A stretch of 64,000 bases of DNA. Source: Streptomyces sp. 71268 (lineage in GTDB: Bacteria > Actinomycetota > Actinomycetes > Streptomycetales > Streptomycetaceae). The notes under the pieces are model-generated. The model was not told where the DNA came from and did not search any database. It was given only the letters and a program-made list of their open reading frames with translations. Below, in pieces: positions 42,526-64,000 of the stretch. Within the stretch, counting starts at the first letter, position 1; every line of letters starts with the position of its first letter. The stretch spans positions 3,813,001 through 3,877,000 of the forward strand of contig NZ_CP114200.1 of assembly GCF_029392895.1 (NCBI RefSeq), in the 5' to 3' direction. Made by a program: the position numbers and the translations under genes.

Positions 42526-43381
42526 CTACCCCGCCCACGTCCCCCGAGCCGCCACCCGGTGGGCCCAGGGGGTCAGGTCGGTGGGGGTGTGGCCCAGGAC
42601 GCGGTGGACGTCGTCGGTGACGTTGGCGGAGTGGCCCGCGCGGTGGAGGGCGAACATGGCGTTCAGGGCGTCGGCGGCGGGCTCCGGCCAGCCTTCGGCG
42701 AGGAGTTGGGCGCGATAGGCGGCCGGGGTGATCTCCTCGTAGCGGATGGGGCGGCCGGCGGCCTCGGCGATGGTGTGGGTGGCCTCGGCGAAGGTGAGGG
42801 CGCGGGGGCCGGTCAGTTCGTAGGTGTGGCCCGCGTGGCCGTCCTCGGTGAGGACCTTCGCGGCGACCGCCGCCACGTCGTCGGCGTCGATGAACGGTTC
42901 GGGCGTCTCCCCGATCGGCAGGGCCAGGCGGCCCGCGCGCAGGGGGGCCAGCCACAGGTCCTCGTCGAAGTTCTGGAAGAAGTTGTTGGGGCGCAGCACG
43001 GTCCACTCGACGCCGGACTCCCGGACCGCCTCCTCGCCGACGGCCATGCCCCGGCCGAAGTCGTCGCCCGCGTGCTCGATGCCGTGGCCGGAGAGGGCCA
43101 CGAAGCGGCGTACCCCCGGACGCCGTGGCCTGGCGTACGAACTCGTCGATGGGGGACGGGTCCTCGGGCGCGACGAGGTAGACGGCCCCGGCGCCGGCGA
43201 GCGCGGGCTCCCAGGTGTCGGGGAGGGTCCAGTCGAAGGTGACCTCGCCGGACCGGGAGGCGGCTCGGACCGGGGCGGTGCCGGCCTCGCGCAGCCGGGC
43301 GACGAGGCGGCGGCCGGTCTTGCCGGTGGCGCCGAGGACGAGGATGTCGGAGGGGGTGCCGTGGGTGCGCTGCGTTGTCAT
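42526..43381 (-). pseudogene. NmrA-like NAD(P)-binding protein, frameshifted
   Basis: Two frames together make one complete protein of about 285 residues. The 5' part (from ATG 43381) has DILVLGATGKTGRRLVARL, the NAD(P) loop, and ends in EFVRQATAS. The 3' part, in another frame, continues RRFVALSGHG-type sequence through VEWTVLRPNNFFQNF and AGHTYELTGPRALTF. The frames join if one base is removed from the run of five C at 43113-43117. This is a pseudogene or a sequencing error in a homopolymer. Intact relatives are atypical SDRs acting on quinones or azo compounds. It diverges from an AraC regulator. Confidence 0.85.
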
Positions 43382-43471
43382 GGGGCAAGTCCACCGCGTG
43401 GCCGGTGGCCGAACCATGGCCGTCCGTCCGTCGTCCATAGGCGATCGTCCGGGGCGCTGCCCGGACCTGCT

Positions 43472-54724: not shown

Positions 54725-54921
54725 GCTCCCCCGCCTCCGCTGTCGCTCCACGGTCTGTGACGGGTCAGCCTGTCACATAGCACGACAATGTGGCACACCC
54801 GCCCCATCAACACCATGGGTATCGTGTGTTTCAGATACCTGGTCAGGCGGGTTCAGGAGGGTTCAGGCGTAGGTCAACGCCCGGATCTGCCGGGAGCCGA
54901 GGGCCGCGCCACGAACCCCCT

Positions 54922-56496
54922 TCAGTCGCCGAGTGGGTCAGTGTGTACGGGAAGCAGGATGCGGAACGTGGCGCCCTGGCCGGGGGAGGTGTGGACCTCC
55001 ATCCGGCCGTGGTGGGCGGCGACCAGGGAGTGGGCGATGGACAGGCCCAGGCCGGCGCCGCCGGTCCGGGTCCGGCCTCGGGCGGTGTCGGCGCGGTAGA
55101 AGCGGTCGAAGACGCGGGCGGCCTGTTCGGCCGTCATGCCGGGGCCCTGGTCGCCCAGTTCGAGGATGGCCAGCGCGTCGTGTGTGCCCACACCGATGCG
55201 GACCGGGGTGCCGGCCGGGGTGTGGGCGATGGCGTTGCCGATCAGGTTGGACATGACCTGGCGCAGCCGCGCCTCGTCCCCCAGCACGGGGGCGGCTCCC
55301 GGCGGGCCGCCGCCGGGGCCGGTCAGGGTGACCGTCCGGTCGGGGGCGAGGGCCCTCAGGTCGTGCAGGGCGTCGGCCGCCAAGGTGCGCAGGTCCATCG
55401 GGGTCGGCTCCAGCGGCAGCTCGGTGCGCGCGGTGGGGTCCTCGTCCAGGCGGGCCAGCAGCAGCAGGTCCTCGACGATGTGCGCCAGGCGGGCCGATTC
55501 GCGCTCGATGCGGTTCATCGCGGTGTCGACGTCGGCCCGCTCGGGCATGCCGCCCATGCGGTACAGCTCGGTGAAGCCCTTGATCCCGAACAGGGGGGTA
55601 CGCAGTTCGTGGCTGGCGTCCGCGACGAAGGCGCGCATCCGGTCGTTGGTGGCCGCCCGTGCCGCGTCACCGGCCTCGATGCGGTCCAGCATGCCGTTGA
55701 GCGCGGCGGCCAGGCGCCCCAGTTCCGTACGGGTGGAGGAGGCCAGGTCGGGGACCCGTCGGGAGAGGTCGCCGCCGGCGATGGCGGCCGCGGTCGTCTC
55801 GATGCGGCGCAGGGGGCGCAGCCCGGCGCGTACGGCGAACCAGCCGATGACGCCCAGCAGGACGAGGACCAGGGAGTCGATCACCAACATCCGCACTCCC
55901 AGGCCCCGGATCGTGCCGTTCACCTCCTCCAGTGAGCCGGCCACGACGATGCTTCCCGTGGCGGACGTGTCCCCGTCCGTGTTCCTGTTCCTCTCCTCGC
56001 CCCTGTCCTTGTCCCCCTCCCTGCCCCCGTCCCCGTTCTGGCGTGGCGGGGAGGGGGCCGGTTGGGCGATCACGCGCCAGTCGTGGCCGTCGCCCGACGC
56101 CTCGAAGGGGGCGCCGCCGCGGGCCGCGACCGCCGCGGCGTCCAGGCGCGGCAGCTCGGGTACGTCGCCCACCGCCGGGCGGGGGCGCTGCGACAGACTG
56201 CCGTCGGCGTTCAGACGGACCACGTAGACGTCCCCGGTGAGCTGGCGCTCCACCGCGTCGCGCTCCGGCGGCGCGGTGGCGTCGGGGTGCGTGCCGGGAT
56301 CGGGGAGCCGCACGGCCGCCGCGGCGGCCGTGCGCAGCCGCTCGTCCATCTGGTCCACCAGTTGCCGCTGGAGGAGCGTGATCAGCAGGGCGTTGCTGGC
56401 GAGCAGGGCGGCCACGACCAGCAGCAGGCAGATGATCACCAGCCGGGTCCGCAGCGACAGACGCGCGGCGCCACGGCGCGGGGACGTCGTGTTCAC
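54922..56496 (-). CDS. sensor histidine kinase
   Basis: A 524-residue two-TM kinase. TM1 is LSLRTRLVIICLLLVVAALL, followed by an outside sensor region of about 150 residues, a charged insert (GGREGDKDRGEERNRNTDGD), TM2 (VIDSLVLVLLGVIGWFAVRA), HAMP, the phospho-His in FVADASHELRTPLFGIKGF (about 295) and the ATPase domain with N, G1 and G2 boxes (MSNLIGNAIAHTP, LGDQGPGMTAEQ, GAGLGLSIAHSL). The GTG start overlaps the regulator stop by four bases. It ends 197 bp before the TerD gene. Confidence 0.93.
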   Translation of the reverse strand: MNTTSPRRGAARLSLRTRLVIICLLLVVAALLASNALLITLLQRQLVDQMDERLRTAAAAAVRLPDPGTHPDATAPPERDAVERQLTGDVYVVRLNADGSLSQRPRPAVGDVPELPRLDAAAVAARGGAPFEASGDGHDWRVIAQPAPSPPRQNGDGGREGDKDRGEERNRNTDGDTSATGSIVVAGSLEEVNGTIRGLGVRMLVIDSLVLVLLGVIGWFAVRAGLRPLRRIETTAAAIAGGDLSRRVPDLASSTRTELGRLAAALNGMLDRIEAGDAARAATNDRMRAFVADASHELRTPLFGIKGFTELYRMGGMPERADVDTAMNRIERESARLAHIVEDLLLLARLDEDPTARTELPLEPTPMDLRTLAADALHDLRALAPDRTVTLTGPGGGPPGAAPVLGDEARLRQVMSNLIGNAIAHTPAGTPVRIGVGTHDALAILELGDQGPGMTAEQAARVFDRFYRADTARGRTRTGGAGLGLSIAHSLVAAHHGRMEVHTSPGQGATFRILLPVHTDPLGD

Positions 56497-57194
56497 TTCC
56501 TCGGCCCGCGCAGGACGTAGCCGATACCGCGCACGGTGTGGATGAGCTTGGTCTCGCCGGTGTCGATCTTCCGACGGAGGTAGCTCACGTAGGAGGCCAC
56601 GATGGAGTCGTCGCCGCCGAAGTCGTAGTGCCAGACCTGGTCCAGCAGTTGTCCCCGGGACAGGACCTGTCCGACGTTCTCCATCAGGACGCGCAGCAGG
56701 TCGAACTCGGTCGGGGACAGCGGGACCGGCACGCCGCCCCGGGTTACCTGGTGGCTGTCGACGTCCAGTTCCAGATCGCCGACCGTGAGGCGGTTCACGG
56801 GTTGGTGGCCGCTGGTGCGGCGCAGTACGGCTTGGATGCGCAGGACCAACTCCTCCAGGTTGAACGGCTTGGTGACGTAGTCGTCCCCGCCCACCCGCAG
56901 CCCGCTGATCCGGTCCTCGGCCGCGTCCCGTGCGGTGAGGAAGAGGATCGGCGTGTGCCCCGTACGCGCGTGCGGGCGGGCGCGCAGGCGGCGGGCGACC
57001 TCGAAGCCGTCGATGTCGGGCAGCATCACGTCCAGCACGACCAGGTCTGCGGCGTGCTCGCGTACCGCGTCCAGCGCCTGCGCGCCGGTCTCGGCGGTGT
57101 CCACGTGGAAGCCGGCCAGCCGCAGGCTCGCCGACAGCAGCTCGCGCAGGGTGGGCTCGTCCTCCACGAGGAGCAGGCGTTGTCTCGTTGTCAT
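56493..57194 (-). CDS. OmpR-family response regulator
   Basis: A 233-residue regulator. The receiver has acidic pocket VEDEP, phospho-acceptor Asp55 in LVVLDVMLPDIDGFE, Thr in LFLTARD and Lys109 in VTKPFNLEEL. The winged-helix domain shows LSPTEFDLLRVLMENVGQVLS, VWHYDFGGDDSIVASYVSYL (recognition helix) and HTVRGIGYVLR. It is transcribed with the kinase and begins 51 bp downstream of the ABC permease stop, so all four genes from 59038 to 54922 may form one unit. Confidence 0.95.
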   Translation of the reverse strand: MTTRQRLLLVEDEPTLRELLSASLRLAGFHVDTAETGAQALDAVREHAADLVVLDVMLPDIDGFEVARRLRARPHARTGHTPILFLTARDAAEDRISGLRVGGDDYVTKPFNLEELVLRIQAVLRRTSGHQPVNRLTVGDLELDVDSHQVTRGGVPVPLSPTEFDLLRVLMENVGQVLSRGQLLDQVWHYDFGGDDSIVASYVSYLRRKIDTGETKLIHTVRGIGYVLRGPRK

Positions 57195-57245
57195 GGCATC
57201 TGCCCCCGACCGGCGATCTACGGCGCGCCCAGTGTCCCCGCCGCG

Positions 57246-58127
57246 TCAGGCGTCGCGCCCGCGGAACACGACGAACGCCGCCGCGAGGAGTGCGGCCACG
57301 CACCCGGCCATGACGCCGAGCCCGGCCCAGGGGGCCAGTGCGTCCGGGTCCCGGACGGCGGTGATGATCCGTCCGCCCGCGAGGGGCGGCCAGAACTTCG
57401 CGACCCCGTCGCCGAGCGCGCCGGGCAACGCGGGCGCGAACGCCCGCACGATGAGCATCACGCCGAACAGCGTCGTCACCGTGGCGGTCGTGGAGCGGAT
57501 CACCGCGCCCAGGGCCAGTCCGAGGAGGGCGGCCAGGGTCAGGTACAGGCCGCCGCCGAGGACGCCGCGCGTCGCCGCGCCGTCCGACAGCGCCAGGTGT
57601 GGGGCGCCCGCCCCGGACAGCGCGGCCTGTCCGACGAGGAAGGCGCCGAGCGACACCACGATCCCGACCGGCAGCGCCACCCCCACCAGCACCAGGGCCT
57701 TCGATCCCAGGACCCGGGCCCGCCGCGGTACGGAGGTGAGGGTGGGCACGATCGTGCGCGCCCCGTACTCGGAGGTCATCACCAGGCCGCCCAGCAGGCC
57801 GAACGCGATCTGCGCGACCAGGTAGCCCATCAGGCTGGTCTCCAGCGGGTCGAACTCGGCCCGGTCGGCGGGTGACAGGTCCGGGTACTCGTCGCCCGCC
57901 GACGAACCGTTCAGCGCGGCCAGGCCCACGGCGAAGGCCAGCGCGCCCAGGATCACGAACAGCGTCGAGCGCATCGTCCGGATCTTGACCCACTCGGCGC
58001 GCAGGCTGTGCCAGAAGGTCGCCCGGTCCGACGCCGCGCTGTTCGACGCGGGCCGCCGGCGGCCCGCGCGGGCGCGCCGCCGCGCCGGGGCCGGCGCCGG
58101 CTCGGGGTGCGCGAGAGGCTGGCTCAT
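57246..58127 (-). CDS. ABC-2-type transporter permease
   Basis: A 293-residue membrane subunit with a cytoplasmic Arg/Pro-rich leader (1-35) and six predicted TM helices: LFVILGALAFAVGLAAL, MGYLVAQIAFGLLGGLVMTS, VLVGVALPVGIVVSLGAFLV, GLYLTLAALLGLALGAVIRS, FGVMLIVRAFAPALPGAL and LGVMAGCVAALLAAAFVVF. SEYGARTIVPTLTSVPRR after TM2 is typical of small bacterial ABC-2 exporters. The ATG overlaps the ATPase stop by four bases. The cargo is unknown; exporters of this kind often handle antimicrobial peptides or lipids. Confidence 0.92.
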   Translation of the reverse strand: MSQPLAHPEPAPAPARRRARAGRRRPASNSAASDRATFWHSLRAEWVKIRTMRSTLFVILGALAFAVGLAALNGSSAGDEYPDLSPADRAEFDPLETSLMGYLVAQIAFGLLGGLVMTSEYGARTIVPTLTSVPRRARVLGSKALVLVGVALPVGIVVSLGAFLVGQAALSGAGAPHLALSDGAATRGVLGGGLYLTLAALLGLALGAVIRSTTATVTTLFGVMLIVRAFAPALPGALGDGVAKFWPPLAGGRIITAVRDPDALAPWAGLGVMAGCVAALLAAAFVVFRGRDA

Positions 58128-59038
58128 CGGTTCGTCTCCTTCTCGGCCTGGTACTCCACCGCGTCTCGGGTCAGGTCCATGAACGCCTTCTCCAGGGACG
58201 CCTGTTGTGGGGTCAGCTCGTGCAGCTCCACCTCGACCGCCGCGGCCAGGGCCCCTATCGCGGCGGCTTCCAGGCCGGTGACCACCAGCGTGTCGTCGCC
58301 CTCGGTCCGCACGTCGGCGGCGCCAGCCAGCAGCGGCCGGAGCTTCTCGGCCTGGGGGGTACGCACCAGGACCCGGCGCTCGGAGTGCGCCGCGATGAAG
58401 TCCTTCATCGCGGTGTCGGCGATCAGCCTGCCGCGCCCGACGACGATGAGATGGTCCGCGGTCAGTTCCATCTCGCTCATCAGATGGCTGGACATCAGCA
58501 CCACGCGTCCCTCGGCGGCCATCGCGCGCATGAGCGAGCGAATCCACACGATGCCCTCGGGGTCGAGACCGTTGAGGGGCTCGTCGAAGACCAGGACCGG
58601 CGGGTCGCCCAGCAGCGCGGCGGCGATCCCCAGGCGCTGGAGCATGCCGAGGGAGAACGTCCCGGCCCTGCGCCGCGCGACCTTCTCCAACCCCACCTCG
58701 GCCAGTACCTGGTCCACGCGGCCGCGTGGGATTCCGCTGCCGGCCGCGAGGGCGAGCAGGTGGTGGAAGGCGGTGCGGCTGGGCAGCACCGCGCCGGGGT
58801 CCAACAGGGCCCCGACCGCCTTGAGCGGGGCGGGCTGGGCGGCGTACGGGCGGCCGCGCACGGTCGCGGTGCCCGAGCTGGGGGCGTCCAGACCCAGAAT
58901 CATCCGCAGCGTCGTCGACTTGCCGGCGCCGTTGGGCCCCAGGAAGCCGGTGACCTCGCCCGCGCGGACGCCGAAGGTCAGGTCGTCCACGGCGAGGACC
59001 TCACCGTAGCGCTTGGTCAGTCCACGTACTTCGATCAT
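58124..59038 (-). CDS. ABC transporter ATP-binding protein
   Basis: A 304-residue ATPase for the adjacent permease. Walker A is GFLGPNGAGKSTT (about 34-46), the signature is SLGMLQRLGIAAAL (a divergent LSGGQ), Walker B is PVLVFDEPLNGLDPEG and the H loop is VVLMSSHLMSEM. The signature (F-S-L-G-M-L-Q-R) is typical of the DrrA/bacitracin-type exporter group. The C-terminal 80 residues are the usual accessory domain. The upstream 59039-59372 holds its promoter and an 11-bp repeat. Confidence 0.94.
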   Translation of the reverse strand: MIEVRGLTKRYGEVLAVDDLTFGVRAGEVTGFLGPNGAGKSTTLRMILGLDAPSSGTATVRGRPYAAQPAPLKAVGALLDPGAVLPSRTAFHHLLALAAGSGIPRGRVDQVLAEVGLEKVARRRAGTFSLGMLQRLGIAAALLGDPPVLVFDEPLNGLDPEGIVWIRSLMRAMAAEGRVVLMSSHLMSEMELTADHLIVVGRGRLIADTAMKDFIAAHSERRVLVRTPQAEKLRPLLAGAADVRTEGDDTLVVTGLEAAAIGALAAAVEVELHELTPQQASLEKAFMDLTRDAVEYQAEKETNR

Positions 59039-59312
59039 CAGGTCTCCACGGGCCGACGGTGGCGGGGTGCCCGCGATGGCCGCGAGCACCACGCCACCGT
59101 CGCCCGCGGACATGGGAGCGCATGGGAGAACATGAACGCCGCATGCCGCCCCTGCCCCGGTGACCTGCGCCGATCGGGGCGTCAGCCGCCTTCGGGGCGG
59201 GGACCTCACATGAAACTCACACGAAGGCCCGCTCCCGCGCGGGTACGGAGGACGCGGCAGCGCTCCGCGCGCGGTCGAGTCGGCCGCCGGCCGTCCGTTC
59301 ACCACCCCTGTC

Positions 59313-59356
59313 GCCGGACGGGCGCCGGACGGACGCCGTGCGGGCGCCGTGCGGGC
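59313..59356. repeat. 11-bp tandem repeat, four copies
   Basis: GCCGGACGGGC, GCCGGACGGAC, GCCGTGCGGGC and GCCGTGCGGGC follow without gaps (59313-59356), just past the end of the fused ATPase gene. Confidence 0.8.
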
Positions 59357-59372
59357 GGGCGCTGCGGCGTCG

Positions 59373-60980
59373 CTACGCCTGTCGCCCCCACGTCGCCGGT
59401 GACCACAGCGACGAGCGGTTCAGGGACTGGGGGCAGTGGCGGTAGACCTCGTCTATCTCGATGAGGACGGCCAGGCTCGGGCGCCCGCCCTCCGCCGTCA
59501 GGGCGTCGAAGAAGGGGGCGTCGGTGAGGACGCGGGCCCGGCCGTTGACGCGCAGGATGGTGCGGCTGCCGGGGAGCAGGTAGAGCAGTCCGGCGTGCGG
59601 GTTGTCGACGATGTTGTGCAGGCTGTCGCCGCGCCGGTTGCCGGGGCGCTCCGGCAGCACCAGCGTGCCGGGGTCGAGGACGTGCGTGAAGCCGGGGTCG
59701 CCTCCGCGCGGCGAGGCGTCACAGGTGCCGTACGCGTCCGAGGTGGACAGCAGGCAGAACGGGGAGCGGGCGACGAAGTCCCGGTCGTCCGGGTCGAGGC
59801 GGTCGTGAACCTTGTCGATGACGATCGGGTGCGGCTCGCCGAGCAACTCCCGTAGCTCGGCGTGCGAGTCGAGGGTGACGTAACCCGAACCGCTCGCGGT
59901 GGGCGTGGCCGTGGCGTGCTCGTGCTCGTGCTCCGGGGCAGCGGCGTCGGTCCTGCTGGGCAAGGCGTCTCCCGGTGGTGGTGGGTGGTGCGGGGCTGTC
60001 TGTGGTGGCCGGCGTACGGCGGTGGGTGTACGGCCGGACGGCGGTGGGGCGGGCGTACGGCGGTAGGCCGGGGGCGTACGGCGTCTCAGTGGGGGCTTGG
60101 CCGCCGGGGCCGGGGCGGGGGACGTGGTGGGTTCCGGGGCCGGGGCGGAGGGTGCGGTGGGGTCCGGGGTGGTGGCCGGTGGTCGGGTGCCGTGGCGGCC
60201 GATGGGGAGCATGAGGGGGCGGCCGGAGACCGGGTCCTCGATGATGCGGCTGTTGAGGCCGAAGACGGCGCGTACGGACTCCTCCGTGAGGACCTCGTGC
60301 GGCGGGCCCGCGGCGTGGAGTCGGCCGTCGGCCAGGGCGACGATGTGGTCGGCGTAGCGGGCGGCGAGGTTGAGGTCGTGCAGGACCATGACGACGGTCG
60401 TGCCGCGCTCGTGGTTGAGGTCGGTGAGCAGGTCCAGGACCTCGACCTGGTGGCTGGCGTCGAGGAAGGTGGTGGGCTCGTCCAGCATGAGGATGTCGGT
60501 CTGCTGGGCCAGCGCCATCGCGATCCACACCCGCTGGCGCTGGCCGCCGGAGAGTTCGTCCACGGAGCGGTCGGCGAGTGCGGTGGTGTCGGTGGCCTCC
60601 AGCGCCGCCGCGACCGCCGCGTCGTCCTCGCCGCTCCAGCGCGAGAACATCCGCTGGTGCGGGTGGCGCCCGCGGCCGACCAGGTCGGCGACGGTGATGC
60701 CCTCGGGCGCCACCGGCGACTGCGGCAGCAGGCCGAGGGTGCGGGCCAACTCCTTGGCGGGCAGCCGGTGTACCTCCTTGCCGTCCAGGACGACGCGGCC
60801 GGCGCGCGGGGACAGCAGCCGGGACATGGACCGCAGCAGCGTCGACTTGCCGCAGGCGTTCGCGCCCACGATCGCCGTGATGCGGCCCGGCGGCACAGTC
60901 AGGTCGAGTGAGTCGACGACGGTGCGGTCGCCGTAGCCGAGGGTGAGCCCTTCGGCGGCCAGGGAATGGGGCTGGGTCAC
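59373..60980 (-). CDS. siderophore ABC ATPase fused to a PPOX-type flavin domain
   Basis: A single open frame of 535 codons. Residues 1-265 are a FecE/FepC-type ATPase: Walker [10 protein letters not shown] (about 40-48), [11 protein letters not shown] (Q loop), [10 protein letters not shown] (about 143), Walker [17 protein letters not shown] (H loop). Residues about 265-370 are a Pro/Thr/Ala linker. The remainder is an FMN-binding split-barrel ([60 protein letters not shown]). GTG 60980 overlaps the permease stop by four bases. The frame never closes between the parts, but an internal TTG (59963) behind GGGAG could give the flavin protein separately. Confidence 0.7.
59961..59972 (-). promoter_or_regulatory. 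possible internal ribosome site and TTG start
   Basis: On the minus strand GGGAG (59972-59968) stands four bases before TTG 59963, inside the linker of the ATPase/flavin fusion. Initiation there would give a separate 196-residue PPOX-type protein. This decides whether the locus makes one or two products. Confidence 0.4.
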
Positions 60981-62083
60981 AGCGAGCCTCCCGCCCGGTT
61001 GGTGCGGATGATCAGGTAGACGAGGTAGGGCGCGCCGAGCACGCCGGTGACGACGCCGACCGGGTAGCGGGTGTCGAAGGCGTACTGGCCGGTGAAGTCG
61101 GCGACCAGCACCAGCAGCGCGCCGACCAGGCCGGCCGGGACCAGCAGCGAGCCGCCGGGGCCGGTGATGCGGGCGGCGATGGGGCCGGAGAGGAAGGCGA
61201 CGAAGGCGATCGGGCCGGCGCCCGCCGTGGCGAAGGCGATGAGGCCGACGGCGGCGATGATGACCGTGATCCGGGTGCGTTCGACGCGTACGCCGAGCGC
61301 CGCGGCGGTGTCGTCGCCGAGTCGCATGGCCGACAGGTTCCGGGCCTGCGACAGGAGTACGGGTCCGAGTACGGCCAGGGCCAGCGCGGCGGGCCTGGCC
61401 TGGTCCCAGGTGGTGCCGTTGAGGCTGCCGGTCAGCCAGCGCATGGCCTCCTGGAGGTCCCACTCGGCGGCCTGCGAGAGCACGTACGCGACGACGCTGT
61501 CGAGCATCGCCGCCATGCCGATGCCGATCAGGATGAGGCGGGTGCCGACCACGCCGTCCTTGAACGCCAGCGTGTAGACGAGCAGGGCCACGGCGAGGGC
61601 GGCGGCGATGGCCAGGGCCGACACCTGGGTCTCGCCGAGCGAGAGCATGACGATCGCGACGGCCGCCGCCGCGCTCGCGCCCGAGCTGATGCCGATGACG
61701 TCGGGGCTGGCGAGCGGGTTGCGCAGCATGGTCTGGAAGGTGACGCCGGCCAGGCCGAAGCTGAAGCCGGCCACGGCGGCGAGCGCGGCGCGCGGCAACC
61801 GCAGCCGCCCGACCGTGAACGTCGCCCCGGGCACCTTCTCGTCCAGGACCACCCGGACCACGTCGGCCAGCGGGTAGTTCGTCTGCCCGTACATCAGCGA
61901 GCCGACGAACGCGAGCAGCACCAGGACGGCCAGCAGCGCGATGACCGCGCGCCGGCGCAGCGCCCGGCGGACCCGGCCGCGCGCCACGGCCCGCACGGCC
62001 TCCACGGCGGACGGGGCGAGCGGGGCCGGGGTGGGTGACGTGGTGGACGAGGTGGTGGGGGCGGTGGGGGAGCCGGCGCTCAC
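60977..62083 (-). CDS. FecCD-family siderophore permease (second)
   Basis: A 368-residue BtuC-fold permease with about nine to ten TM helices. Landmarks are [45 protein letters not shown] (one block, given here as start of the conserved core), [32 protein letters not shown] and a C-terminal [21 protein letters not shown] Ser/Thr/Pro-rich N-terminus precedes TM1. GTG 62083 overlaps the preceding permease stop (GTGA) and its own stop overlaps the ATPase start. Confidence 0.93.
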
Positions 62084-63123
62084 AGGGCACGCACCTTCTG
62101 CCGACGGACGATCCAGATGAAGAAGGGGGCGCCGACCAGCGCCGTCACGATGCCCACGTCGATCTCGGCGGGCCGGGCGACGACCCGGCCGACGACGTCG
62201 GCGGCGGTGAGCAGCGCCGCGCCGAGCAGCGCCGAGAACGGCAGCAGCCAGCGGTGGTCCACGCCGACCAGCAGCCGGCAGGCGTGCGGGACGACGAGGC
62301 CGACGAAGCCGATCGGGCCGGCGACCGCGGTCGCCGCGCCGCACAGCACGACGGCGCCGAGCGCGGCCACGCCCCGGGCCAGCGCGACCCGCTCGCCGAG
62401 CCCGGCCGCCAACTCCTCGCCGAGCGCGAGCGAGTTGAGGGCCTTGGCCGACAGCAGGCAGATCGCGAAGCCGACGGCGAGGAAGGGCAGCACGTGCCCG
62501 ATGCGCTCGTACGAGGCGCCGCCCACGCCGCCGATCTGCCACAGCCGGAAGCTGCCGGCCAGGTCGTTGCGGGGCAGCAGTACCGCGGTGACCAGCGAGG
62601 CGAAGGCGGCGGAGGTGGCCGCGCCGGACAGGGCCAGCTTCAGCGGCGTGGCGCCGCCGCGCCCCAGCGTGCCGACGCCGTAGACGAACGCGGCGGCGAG
62701 CGCGGCGCCCGCCATCGCGACCCAGATGTAGCCGGTCGGCGAGGTGAGGCCGAAGTACGCGACCGAGACGGCCACGGCCAGCGAGGCGCCCATGTTGACG
62801 CCGAGGACGCCCGGGTCGGCCAGCGGGTTGCGGGTCACGCCCTGCATGACCGCGCCCGCCAGCCCGAGCGCCGCGCCGACCAGCACCGCGAGGAACGTGC
62901 GCGGCACGCGCTTGACGACCGCCGCCCGCTCCAGGGTGTCCTCCGCGCCGCCGATCCCCGCCCAGACGTCGGACCAGCCGACGGTGCGGGAGCCGAAGGC
63001 GACGGAGGCCACCATCAGCGCGGCCAGCACCACGACGGCGACCAGCAGCCACAGGGCGCGCACGCGCGCCGGACGCCGCACCACGGCGACGTCCGGCGTA
63101 CGAGGGGTGGTGTCCGTGGTCAC
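62080..63123 (-). CDS. FecCD-family siderophore permease (first)
   Basis: A 347-residue BtuC-fold permease. Conserved blocks: [59 protein letters not shown] (cytoplasmic coupling region) and the ending [18 protein letters not shown]. It pairs with the next permease to form the heterodimeric channel. GTG 63123 overlaps the binding-protein stop by four bases. Confidence 0.94.
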
Positions 63124-64000
63124 TTGACCTTGTCCGCGGCCTTGGCGAGCGCGGCGACGTAGTCATCGAGCACCCACGAGATCGACAGCGGCGTCGGGTT
63201 GGCCGCGGTCGCCAGCGGCGAGGTGCCGGGCAGCAGGTACATCGAGTCGCGCTTGATGGCCGGAAGCTTGGAGACCAGCGGGTCCTTGCGCAGCGTCTTG
63301 GCCAGGGTGCCCTTGTCGTCGCCGTAGCCGGTGACGATGTCGACGTCGTTGAACTCGTCGATCTGCTCGGCGCTGCGGGTGAGCGCGAACTTGTCGGTGC
63401 CCTTGGACGCCTTGGCGACGCTGTCCGGGATCTTCAGGCCGAGGTCCTCGAAGAAGAGCGTGCGGGTGTCGTTGGCGGTGTAGAAGCCGACCTCGCTGAC
63501 GTCCCCGGGGTCGATGTGCGTCATGAACATCGCCGACTTGCCCTTGAGCTGCGGGTACTTGCTGACGGTGCGGGAGATCTGCCCTTCCAGGTCCTTGATC
63601 ATCGCCTCGCCCTTGCCGGCGAGCCCGATGGCCTTGCTGTTGGACCGGATGATCTCGCGCCACGGCGTCGCCCACGGGGCGTCCGGGTAGACCACCACGG
63701 GGGCGATCTCGCTCAGGGTCTCGTAGTCCTGCTTGGTCATGCCGGAGTAGGTGGCGAGGATGACGTCCGGCTGGGTGTCGGCGACGGCCTCGAAGTCGAT
63801 GCCGTCGTTCTCGTCGAACAGGACCGGCGTCTTGGCGCCCAGTTCGTCCAGCTTCTTCTCCACCCAGGGCAGCACCCCGTCGCCGTCGTCGTCACCGAAG
63901 TCGGCCTTGGCCATGCCGACGGGGACCACGCCGAGCGCCAGCGGCACCTCGTGGTTGGCCCAGTTGACGGTGGCGACGCGCTCGGGCTTCTTCTTGATGG
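63120..64000 (-). CDS. iron-siderophore substrate-binding protein, N-terminus outside the window
   Basis: The visible 293 codons are a FecB/FepB-type periplasmic-binding-fold lipoprotein body that captures ferric siderophores at the cell surface. KKPERVATVNWANHEVPLAL opens it, then FEAVADTQPDVILATYSGMT, SEIAPVVVYPDAPWATPW, the long spine helix and NDVDIVTGYGDDKGTL near the C-terminus. The signal peptide and lipobox lie beyond the right edge. It heads the operon: binding protein, two permeases, ATPase. Confidence 0.92.
   Translation of the reverse strand, partial: IKKKPERVATVNWANHEVPLALGVVPVGMAKADFGDDDGDGVLPWVEKKLDELGAKTPVLFDENDGIDFEAVADTQPDVILATYSGMTKQDYETLSEIAPVVVYPDAPWATPWREIIRSNSKAIGLAGKGEAMIKDLEGQISRTVSKYPQLKGKSAMFMTHIDPGDVSEVGFYTANDTRTLFFEDLGLKIPDSVAKASKGTDKFALTRSAEQIDEFNDVDIVTGYGDDKGTLAKTLRKDPLVSKLPAIKRDSMYLLPGTSPLATAANPTPLSISWVLDDYVAALAKAADKVK

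Follow-up and report, generated by a model that had tools for sequence, protein, structure and literature searches.

The minus strand of the window (the whole stretch of 64,000 nucleotides analyzed here) carries, as deposited, a single frame without a stop codon from a GTG at 60980 to a TAG at 59373, and its translation of 535 residues begins as the ATPase of a siderophore importer and ends as a flavoprotein. Is this one protein, in which a candidate reductase is tethered to the importer, or are these two genes that happen to share a frame? We regard it as fairly probable that two separate genes of a ferric-siderophore import operon have come to share a frame through a one-base change, and that the flavoprotein is most likely an iron-releasing reductase.

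The long open frame and its operon

Residues 1–264 constitute the ATPase part of the frame, in which Pfam recognized ABC_tran at residues 23–171 (110 bits against a cut-off of 25). This part was assigned to the FecE/FepC type as an ABC ATPase whose operon also encodes FecCD permeases and a periplasmic-type binding protein (Pfam and NCBIfam); its top NCBIfam models, FepC (330 bits, cut-off 497) and FecE (321 bits, cut-off 375), both remained below their equivalog cut-offs. At the other end of the frame, PNPOx_N covered residues 398–514 (50.6 bits, cut-off 28.1), and residues 375–532 scored 199.4 bits with the NCBIfam model TIGR04025, "MSMEG_1061 family FMN-dependent PPOX-type flavoprotein," above its cut-off of 170, which places them in this family. 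No difference from the family was found within the domain, and the window member is located in a siderophore-import operon. A preliminary description of this DNA had reported a FecE-type ATPase and a PPOX-type FMN domain in one stop-free frame of a ferric-siderophore operon, and translation, Pfam, and NCBIfam confirmed both points, with two FecCD permeases and a Peripla_BP_2 protein lying upstream. The linker that it described is present between the domains, although it measures about 110 residues (265 to 374) rather than about 105, and the internal TTG that it noted at 59963 does follow a GGGAG located five bases ahead. The features of the locus are as follows.

63120..64000, minus strand: siderophore-binding protein, truncated by the window edge (Pfam Peripla_BP_2, 88.9 bits over 63120-63947)
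62080..63123, minus strand: FecCD-type permease (Pfam FecCD, 296.9 bits)
60977..62128, minus strand: FecCD-type permease, start codon not fixed (Pfam FecCD, 253.8 bits)
60189..60980, minus strand: siderophore-importer ATPase domain of the FecE/FepC type, residues 1–264, whose GTG start overlaps the preceding permease stop (Pfam, NCBIfam)
60089..60188, minus strand: C-terminal ATPase tail of low complexity, which is coding in the relatives as well and varies in length (alignment)
60091..60095, minus strand: C5 run that, in the alignment with S. buecherae and S. philanthi, exceeds the sister sequence by one base
60086..60088, minus strand: TGA, out of frame here, at which the ATPase of S. buecherae and S. 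philanthi terminates (alignment)
59964..60085, minus strand: spacer between the two genes, poorly conserved (S. buecherae alignment, third-position G+C)
59969..59973, minus strand: GGGAG, probable ribosome-binding site of the flavoprotein (GGGAG followed by TTG recurs in relatives)
59373..59963, minus strand: PPOX-type flavoprotein gene from TTG, 196 codons plus stop (TIGR04025, MSMEG_1061 family)

The operon would thus comprise a binding protein, two permeases, an ATPase, and then a separate gene that has its own GGGAG-TTG start and encodes an FMN-type PPOX flavoprotein, probably from the same message as the importer genes. Rfam found two tRNAs in the window and none at the ATPase-PPOX locus. 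Directly behind the flavoprotein, 54823-59367 holds a block consisting of an ABC-2 type exporter, a response regulator, and a sensor kinase:

58124-59098: ABC-2 exporter ATPase
57246-58127: ABC-2 exporter membrane protein, just above the cut-off
56493-57194: response regulator
54922-56496: sensor kinase

In Streptomyces buecherae, the flanks of this block are only 35 bases apart, and a TerD-domain gene comes after the flavoprotein.

The ATPase stop and the spacer in Streptomyces relatives

The sister genome, S. buecherae AC541 (NZ_CP060404.1), contains the same operon with 93% DNA identity (1963 of 2108 aligned columns), and its ATPase is 98% identical to that of the window. In this genome the ATPase is 298 codons long and ends with a TGA, behind which the flavoprotein begins at a TTG in the same frame; the corresponding NCBI protein (P0042) begins at the position matching the flavoprotein TTG of the window. 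The ancestral TGA is still present in the window (60088-60086) and is out of frame because the C5 run ahead of it has one extra base compared with S. buecherae. This one-base difference, whether a recent mutation or a sequencing error, would shift the old ATPase stop out of frame and so fuse the two frames.

A stop between ATPase and flavoprotein is present in all six other Streptomyces species in which the ATPase was found directly upstream. Besides S. buecherae, these are S. philanthi, S. uncialis, S. gossypii, and S. smyrnaeus, which came from a set of 80 loci retained after 94 relatives had been identified in the genome collection, and G497, found among 392 genomes of the genus; a further genome, G689, was left uncounted because its tail and spacer are the same as those of S. 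smyrnaeus. Relative to the ATPase, the flavoprotein is in frame 0 in the window and S. buecherae, in frame 1 in S. philanthi and S. gossypii, and in frame 2 in S. uncialis, S. smyrnaeus, and G497. The result that the preliminary description had named as refuting one covalent protein was thus obtained: the linker holds a stop in S. buecherae, and in the five other species the flavoprotein lies in another frame behind the ATPase stop. The alternative raised there, two proteins by way of GGGAG-TTG, proved to be the conserved state in relatives, and this start is shared by S. buecherae, S. philanthi, S. uncialis, and G497; in the alignment of relatives it is absent from S. gossypii and S. smyrnaeus, which start otherwise. 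The ATPase stop and a possible next start overlap in S. smyrnaeus as TGATG, which can, as read from the DNA, join the stop and start of two genes. Such an overlap is the usual sign of translational coupling between two genes. The flavoprotein of S. philanthi (P0043, locus L038), an insect symbiont, contains an inserted internal segment that includes a partial repeat, and its C end differs; both perhaps represent decay.

The spacer itself was then compared. Its alignment with S. buecherae contains gaps of 7, 3, and 1 bases, which appear hardly compatible with a coding linker, and the GGGAG/TTG block is almost identical. The third-position G+C was 0.97 in the ATPase, 0.82 in the tail (residues 265–302), 0.68 in residues 303–340, 0.91 in residues 341–374, and 0.95 in the PPOX domain. 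Across 1243 overlapping 38-codon segments of the operon genes, the minimum was 0.74, so that no segment was as low as 0.68. As proof of a non-coding spacer, this measure was weakened by a control and is not decisive alone, because the linkers of true fusions in another genus (g135, see below) gave 0.95, 0.70, and 0.84, one of them nearly as low. Conversely, we rejected the missing stop as proof of a fusion gene: when residues 303–340 (38 codons) were shuffled by single bases 10,000 times, 78% of the shuffles were still open in the frame tested, so that the lack of a stop is by itself no evidence of a fusion gene. The lesson from the window is that an open frame across two domains is weak evidence of fusion in high-G+C genomes.

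Against two genes stands the deposited sequence itself, which is without a stop and would be read through by ribosomes. The join may, however, be an error of sequencing or assembly at the homopolymer, with the long frame present in no living cell. We give this explanation, which is a sub-case of the two-gene reading and not additional to it, slightly less than an even chance. It gained weight from a comparison of 48 open frames of the sister region (at least 120 codons, coding base pattern), 40 of which were matched in the window at >80% identity. Four of the 40 looked odd: two were cut by the window edge, one had a different start, and one (42529-43438), a conserved gene that is intact in S. 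buecherae, was interrupted where a G5 run near 43115 carries one inserted base. The ATPase escaped flagging in this comparison because its shift sits in the last residues. In the reverse comparison of 39 genes, three had differing ends and none lay in two frames. A homopolymer error is a serious possibility because two one-base insertions in runs of five occur within 64 kb; on the other hand, these are only two events, and both could be genuine mutations. If the extra base is real, the fused protein would be made, and probably the short flavoprotein from the TTG as well.

Fusions of ATPase and PPOX domains in other genera

The PPOX part of the frame was searched against 5.8 billion proteins, with targets of 0.55 to 1.75 times the frame length. 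Forty proteins were returned, of which one (P0017) had an ATPase domain; the window's own protein was not among these 40. With the PPOX part of P0017 as the query, 11 proteins were obtained among the best 7995 candidates scored, namely nine full-length ATPase-PPOX fusions (P0017 included), one fragment (P0169), and one protein without ATPase (P0171). Named sources of the fusions are Williamsia sterculiae, Pseudonocardia sp. ICBG1293, and three Actinomycetospora. All nine exceeded the PNPOx_N cut-off and had the ATPase followed by the PPOX domain, as in the window. Their PPOX domain is a more distant relative, since TIGR04025 gave 154, 166, and 176 bits for the three fusions scanned, one of which passes the cut-off of 170. 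Full-length, stop-free fused genes were also present in three genomes of genus g135, among the matches listed from 150 genomes of another order, with the 56-, 33-, and 38-residue linkers in frame in each case. When P0017 was searched against 394 genomes of the class at E ≤ 1e-120, no match was found, yet G418 from the same survey holds a fusion; this empty result reflects the threshold or the first look and carries no weight. Judging from these sequences, the ATPase-PPOX fusion as a kind exists in other genera. In a different combination, an acetyltransferase-type domain (precomputed PF13673, PF13508, and PF00583) precedes a similar PPOX domain in P0007, P0008 (Paenibacillus), and P0005.

The other Actinomycetia fusions resemble the frame of the window in having a FecE-type ATPase and then a PPOX domain in one frame, and their ATPases belong to the same wider clade, but their linkers are shorter (roughly 10 to 30 residues in the database proteins, judged by eye, and 33 to 56 in g135, against about 110). 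In trees of the two domains, which were built by a quick method with a midpoint root, the nine database fusions formed one clade with a support of 100 in both the ATPase and the PPOX tree, without the window. The window grouped instead with unfused Streptomyces, with a support of 100 among six ATPases and 99 among three PPOX rows; the PPOX tree was limited to the nine fusions plus 17 rows from Streptomyces, and both trees were built without the g135 fusions. With a stop between the two genes in all six close relatives and no common descent with the nine fusions, the window falls outside the fusion clade. Because it nests with unfused Streptomyces apart from that clade, the window most likely acquired its join separately. 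Whether homologues keep the fusion, as the preliminary description had asked, thus has a divided answer: the six close Streptomyces species do not, and the nine database proteins and three g135 genomes do.

These fusions bear on the possibility that the frame of the window is a real fusion, produced by a recent loss of the stop and giving a 535-residue ATPase-PPOX protein together with a short form from the TTG, which would hold the candidate reductase to the importer at the membrane. The frame is open in a one-contig genome of 99.18% completeness, and the same domains are joined in the same order in the nine full-length database proteins and the three g135 genomes, which means that such a join is tolerated and can be kept. 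We nevertheless consider a real fusion in the window unlikely, because it depends on a single homopolymer base, because all six other species with this gene order are unfused, and because the nine fusions stand apart in both trees from the window and its unfused Streptomyces neighbors. The fused relatives in other genera are natural proteins for testing tethering.

A precedent for tethering is also found in mycobacteria. According to passages of PMC10246721, the siderophore interaction domain of IrtAB from Mycobacterium tuberculosis lies within the IrtA chain and controls reduction, with FAD as the electron donor. A flavin-using domain is thus covalently attached to a siderophore-import ABC protein in IrtA, part of the mycobacterial mycobactin importer, and because of IrtA, a flavin reductase tethered to a siderophore transporter is a known general idea (PMC10246721). 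The suggestion in the preliminary description that such a covalent arrangement was not known did not hold, given IrtA and the ABC-PPOX fusions in databases and genomes. The two systems differ in architecture: the FAD-linked siderophore interaction domain of IrtA is N-terminal in a half transporter that includes a membrane domain of its own, whereas the PPOX domain of the window stands C-terminal to a stand-alone ATPase, to which it is probably not joined at all. Neither a siderophore interaction domain nor a membrane domain was present in the frame, in which Pfam found ATPase-type and PNPOx_N domains only.

Fold, neighborhood, and possible function of the flavoprotein

The predicted structure of the flavoprotein was a split barrel (mean pLDDT 86). 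Its top structural match was HupZ (7kq2_A; E 2.1e-9, TM-score 0.83 by target length); the other best matches were 2htd and, as a separate entry, the Desulfovibrio vulgaris FMN-binding protein, while F420 proteins and HutZ (3tgv_A, E 2.2e-5) ranked below. A sequence search of solved structures with the single PPOX protein gave no match, and an alignment-based search returned 2htd only (E 2e-4). With this predicted split-barrel fold and FMN-binding proteins among its matches, the flavoprotein may bind FMN. In our preferred reading of the locus as two separate genes, it would act in the cytoplasm on the imported iron complex. From its neighborhood, the preferred function is that of a candidate flavin-dependent reductase freeing siderophore iron, which is plausible; reduction would most likely release the iron, and heme or tetrapyrrole chemistry would be the next possibility.

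In the latter case, the flavoprotein would degrade or bind heme, as a split-barrel protein similar to HupZ or HutZ, which act in an iron acquisition setting, and the importer would carry heme or another tetrapyrrole. The modeled fold is shared with both, and HupZ is the best match of the model with HutZ listed too, but sequence identity in the structural alignments is 15 to 19%, proteins of this fold that use FMN or F420 rank alongside, and the best heme model (239 bits) gave the ATPase a lower score than FepC and FecE did, all under cut-off; we regard this function as rather unlikely.

The neighborhood was examined across the 80 Streptomyces loci. A FecCD permease lies within 6 kb of the PPOX gene in 72 of them, a raw count without a background rate from related loci that are not 72 independent events, and two (L040 and L099) of the eight loci without a nearby FecCD are on short contigs. 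The ATPase is directly upstream on the same strand in five loci, a different ATPase is directly downstream in 35, and in some the permease operon is divergent from the PPOX gene. ATPases upstream of, divergent from, or fused to PPOX formed one clade of 23 rows (support 96), apart from the other ATPases of the window genome. The downstream ATPase (45% identical), with five rows in the tree, falls outside this clade, so that PPOX is not tied to a single ATPase lineage. In a class-wide draw, importer genes were within 1.5 kb in six of 30 loci fetched from 70 matches listed (4 of 11 in the genus, window included, and 2 of 19 elsewhere), and because the link falls to this level, iron uptake is not a setting shared by the PPOX family at large.

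To our knowledge, intracellular iron release from siderophores in streptomycetes is poorly worked out, and a family that lies near a siderophore importer in most Streptomyces loci would provide a named candidate enzyme for this step. A partial search of the literature on this PPOX family or its siderophore link found no description of it as an iron-release enzyme, and MSMEG_1061 is merely listed in an expression table in the passages of PMC3068626 available to us. A broader proposal, which we put forward tentatively and consider doubtful, is that these proteins form an undescribed class of cytoplasmic iron-release enzymes for the FecBCDE-type importers of Actinomycetia, tethered in some lineages and joined recently and independently in the window, with the fused and the free form made there from one message. 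If this were true, IrtA-like tethering would have been reached by way of a different flavin fold on a different kind of ABC protein.

A layout with two importers was seen in Streptomyces olivaceus (L053, 1500-10600), the one locus at which it was checked in full. There, the PPOX gene is flanked on one side by a divergent FecCD importer and on the other by a second importer, whose permease is of double length (697 residues).
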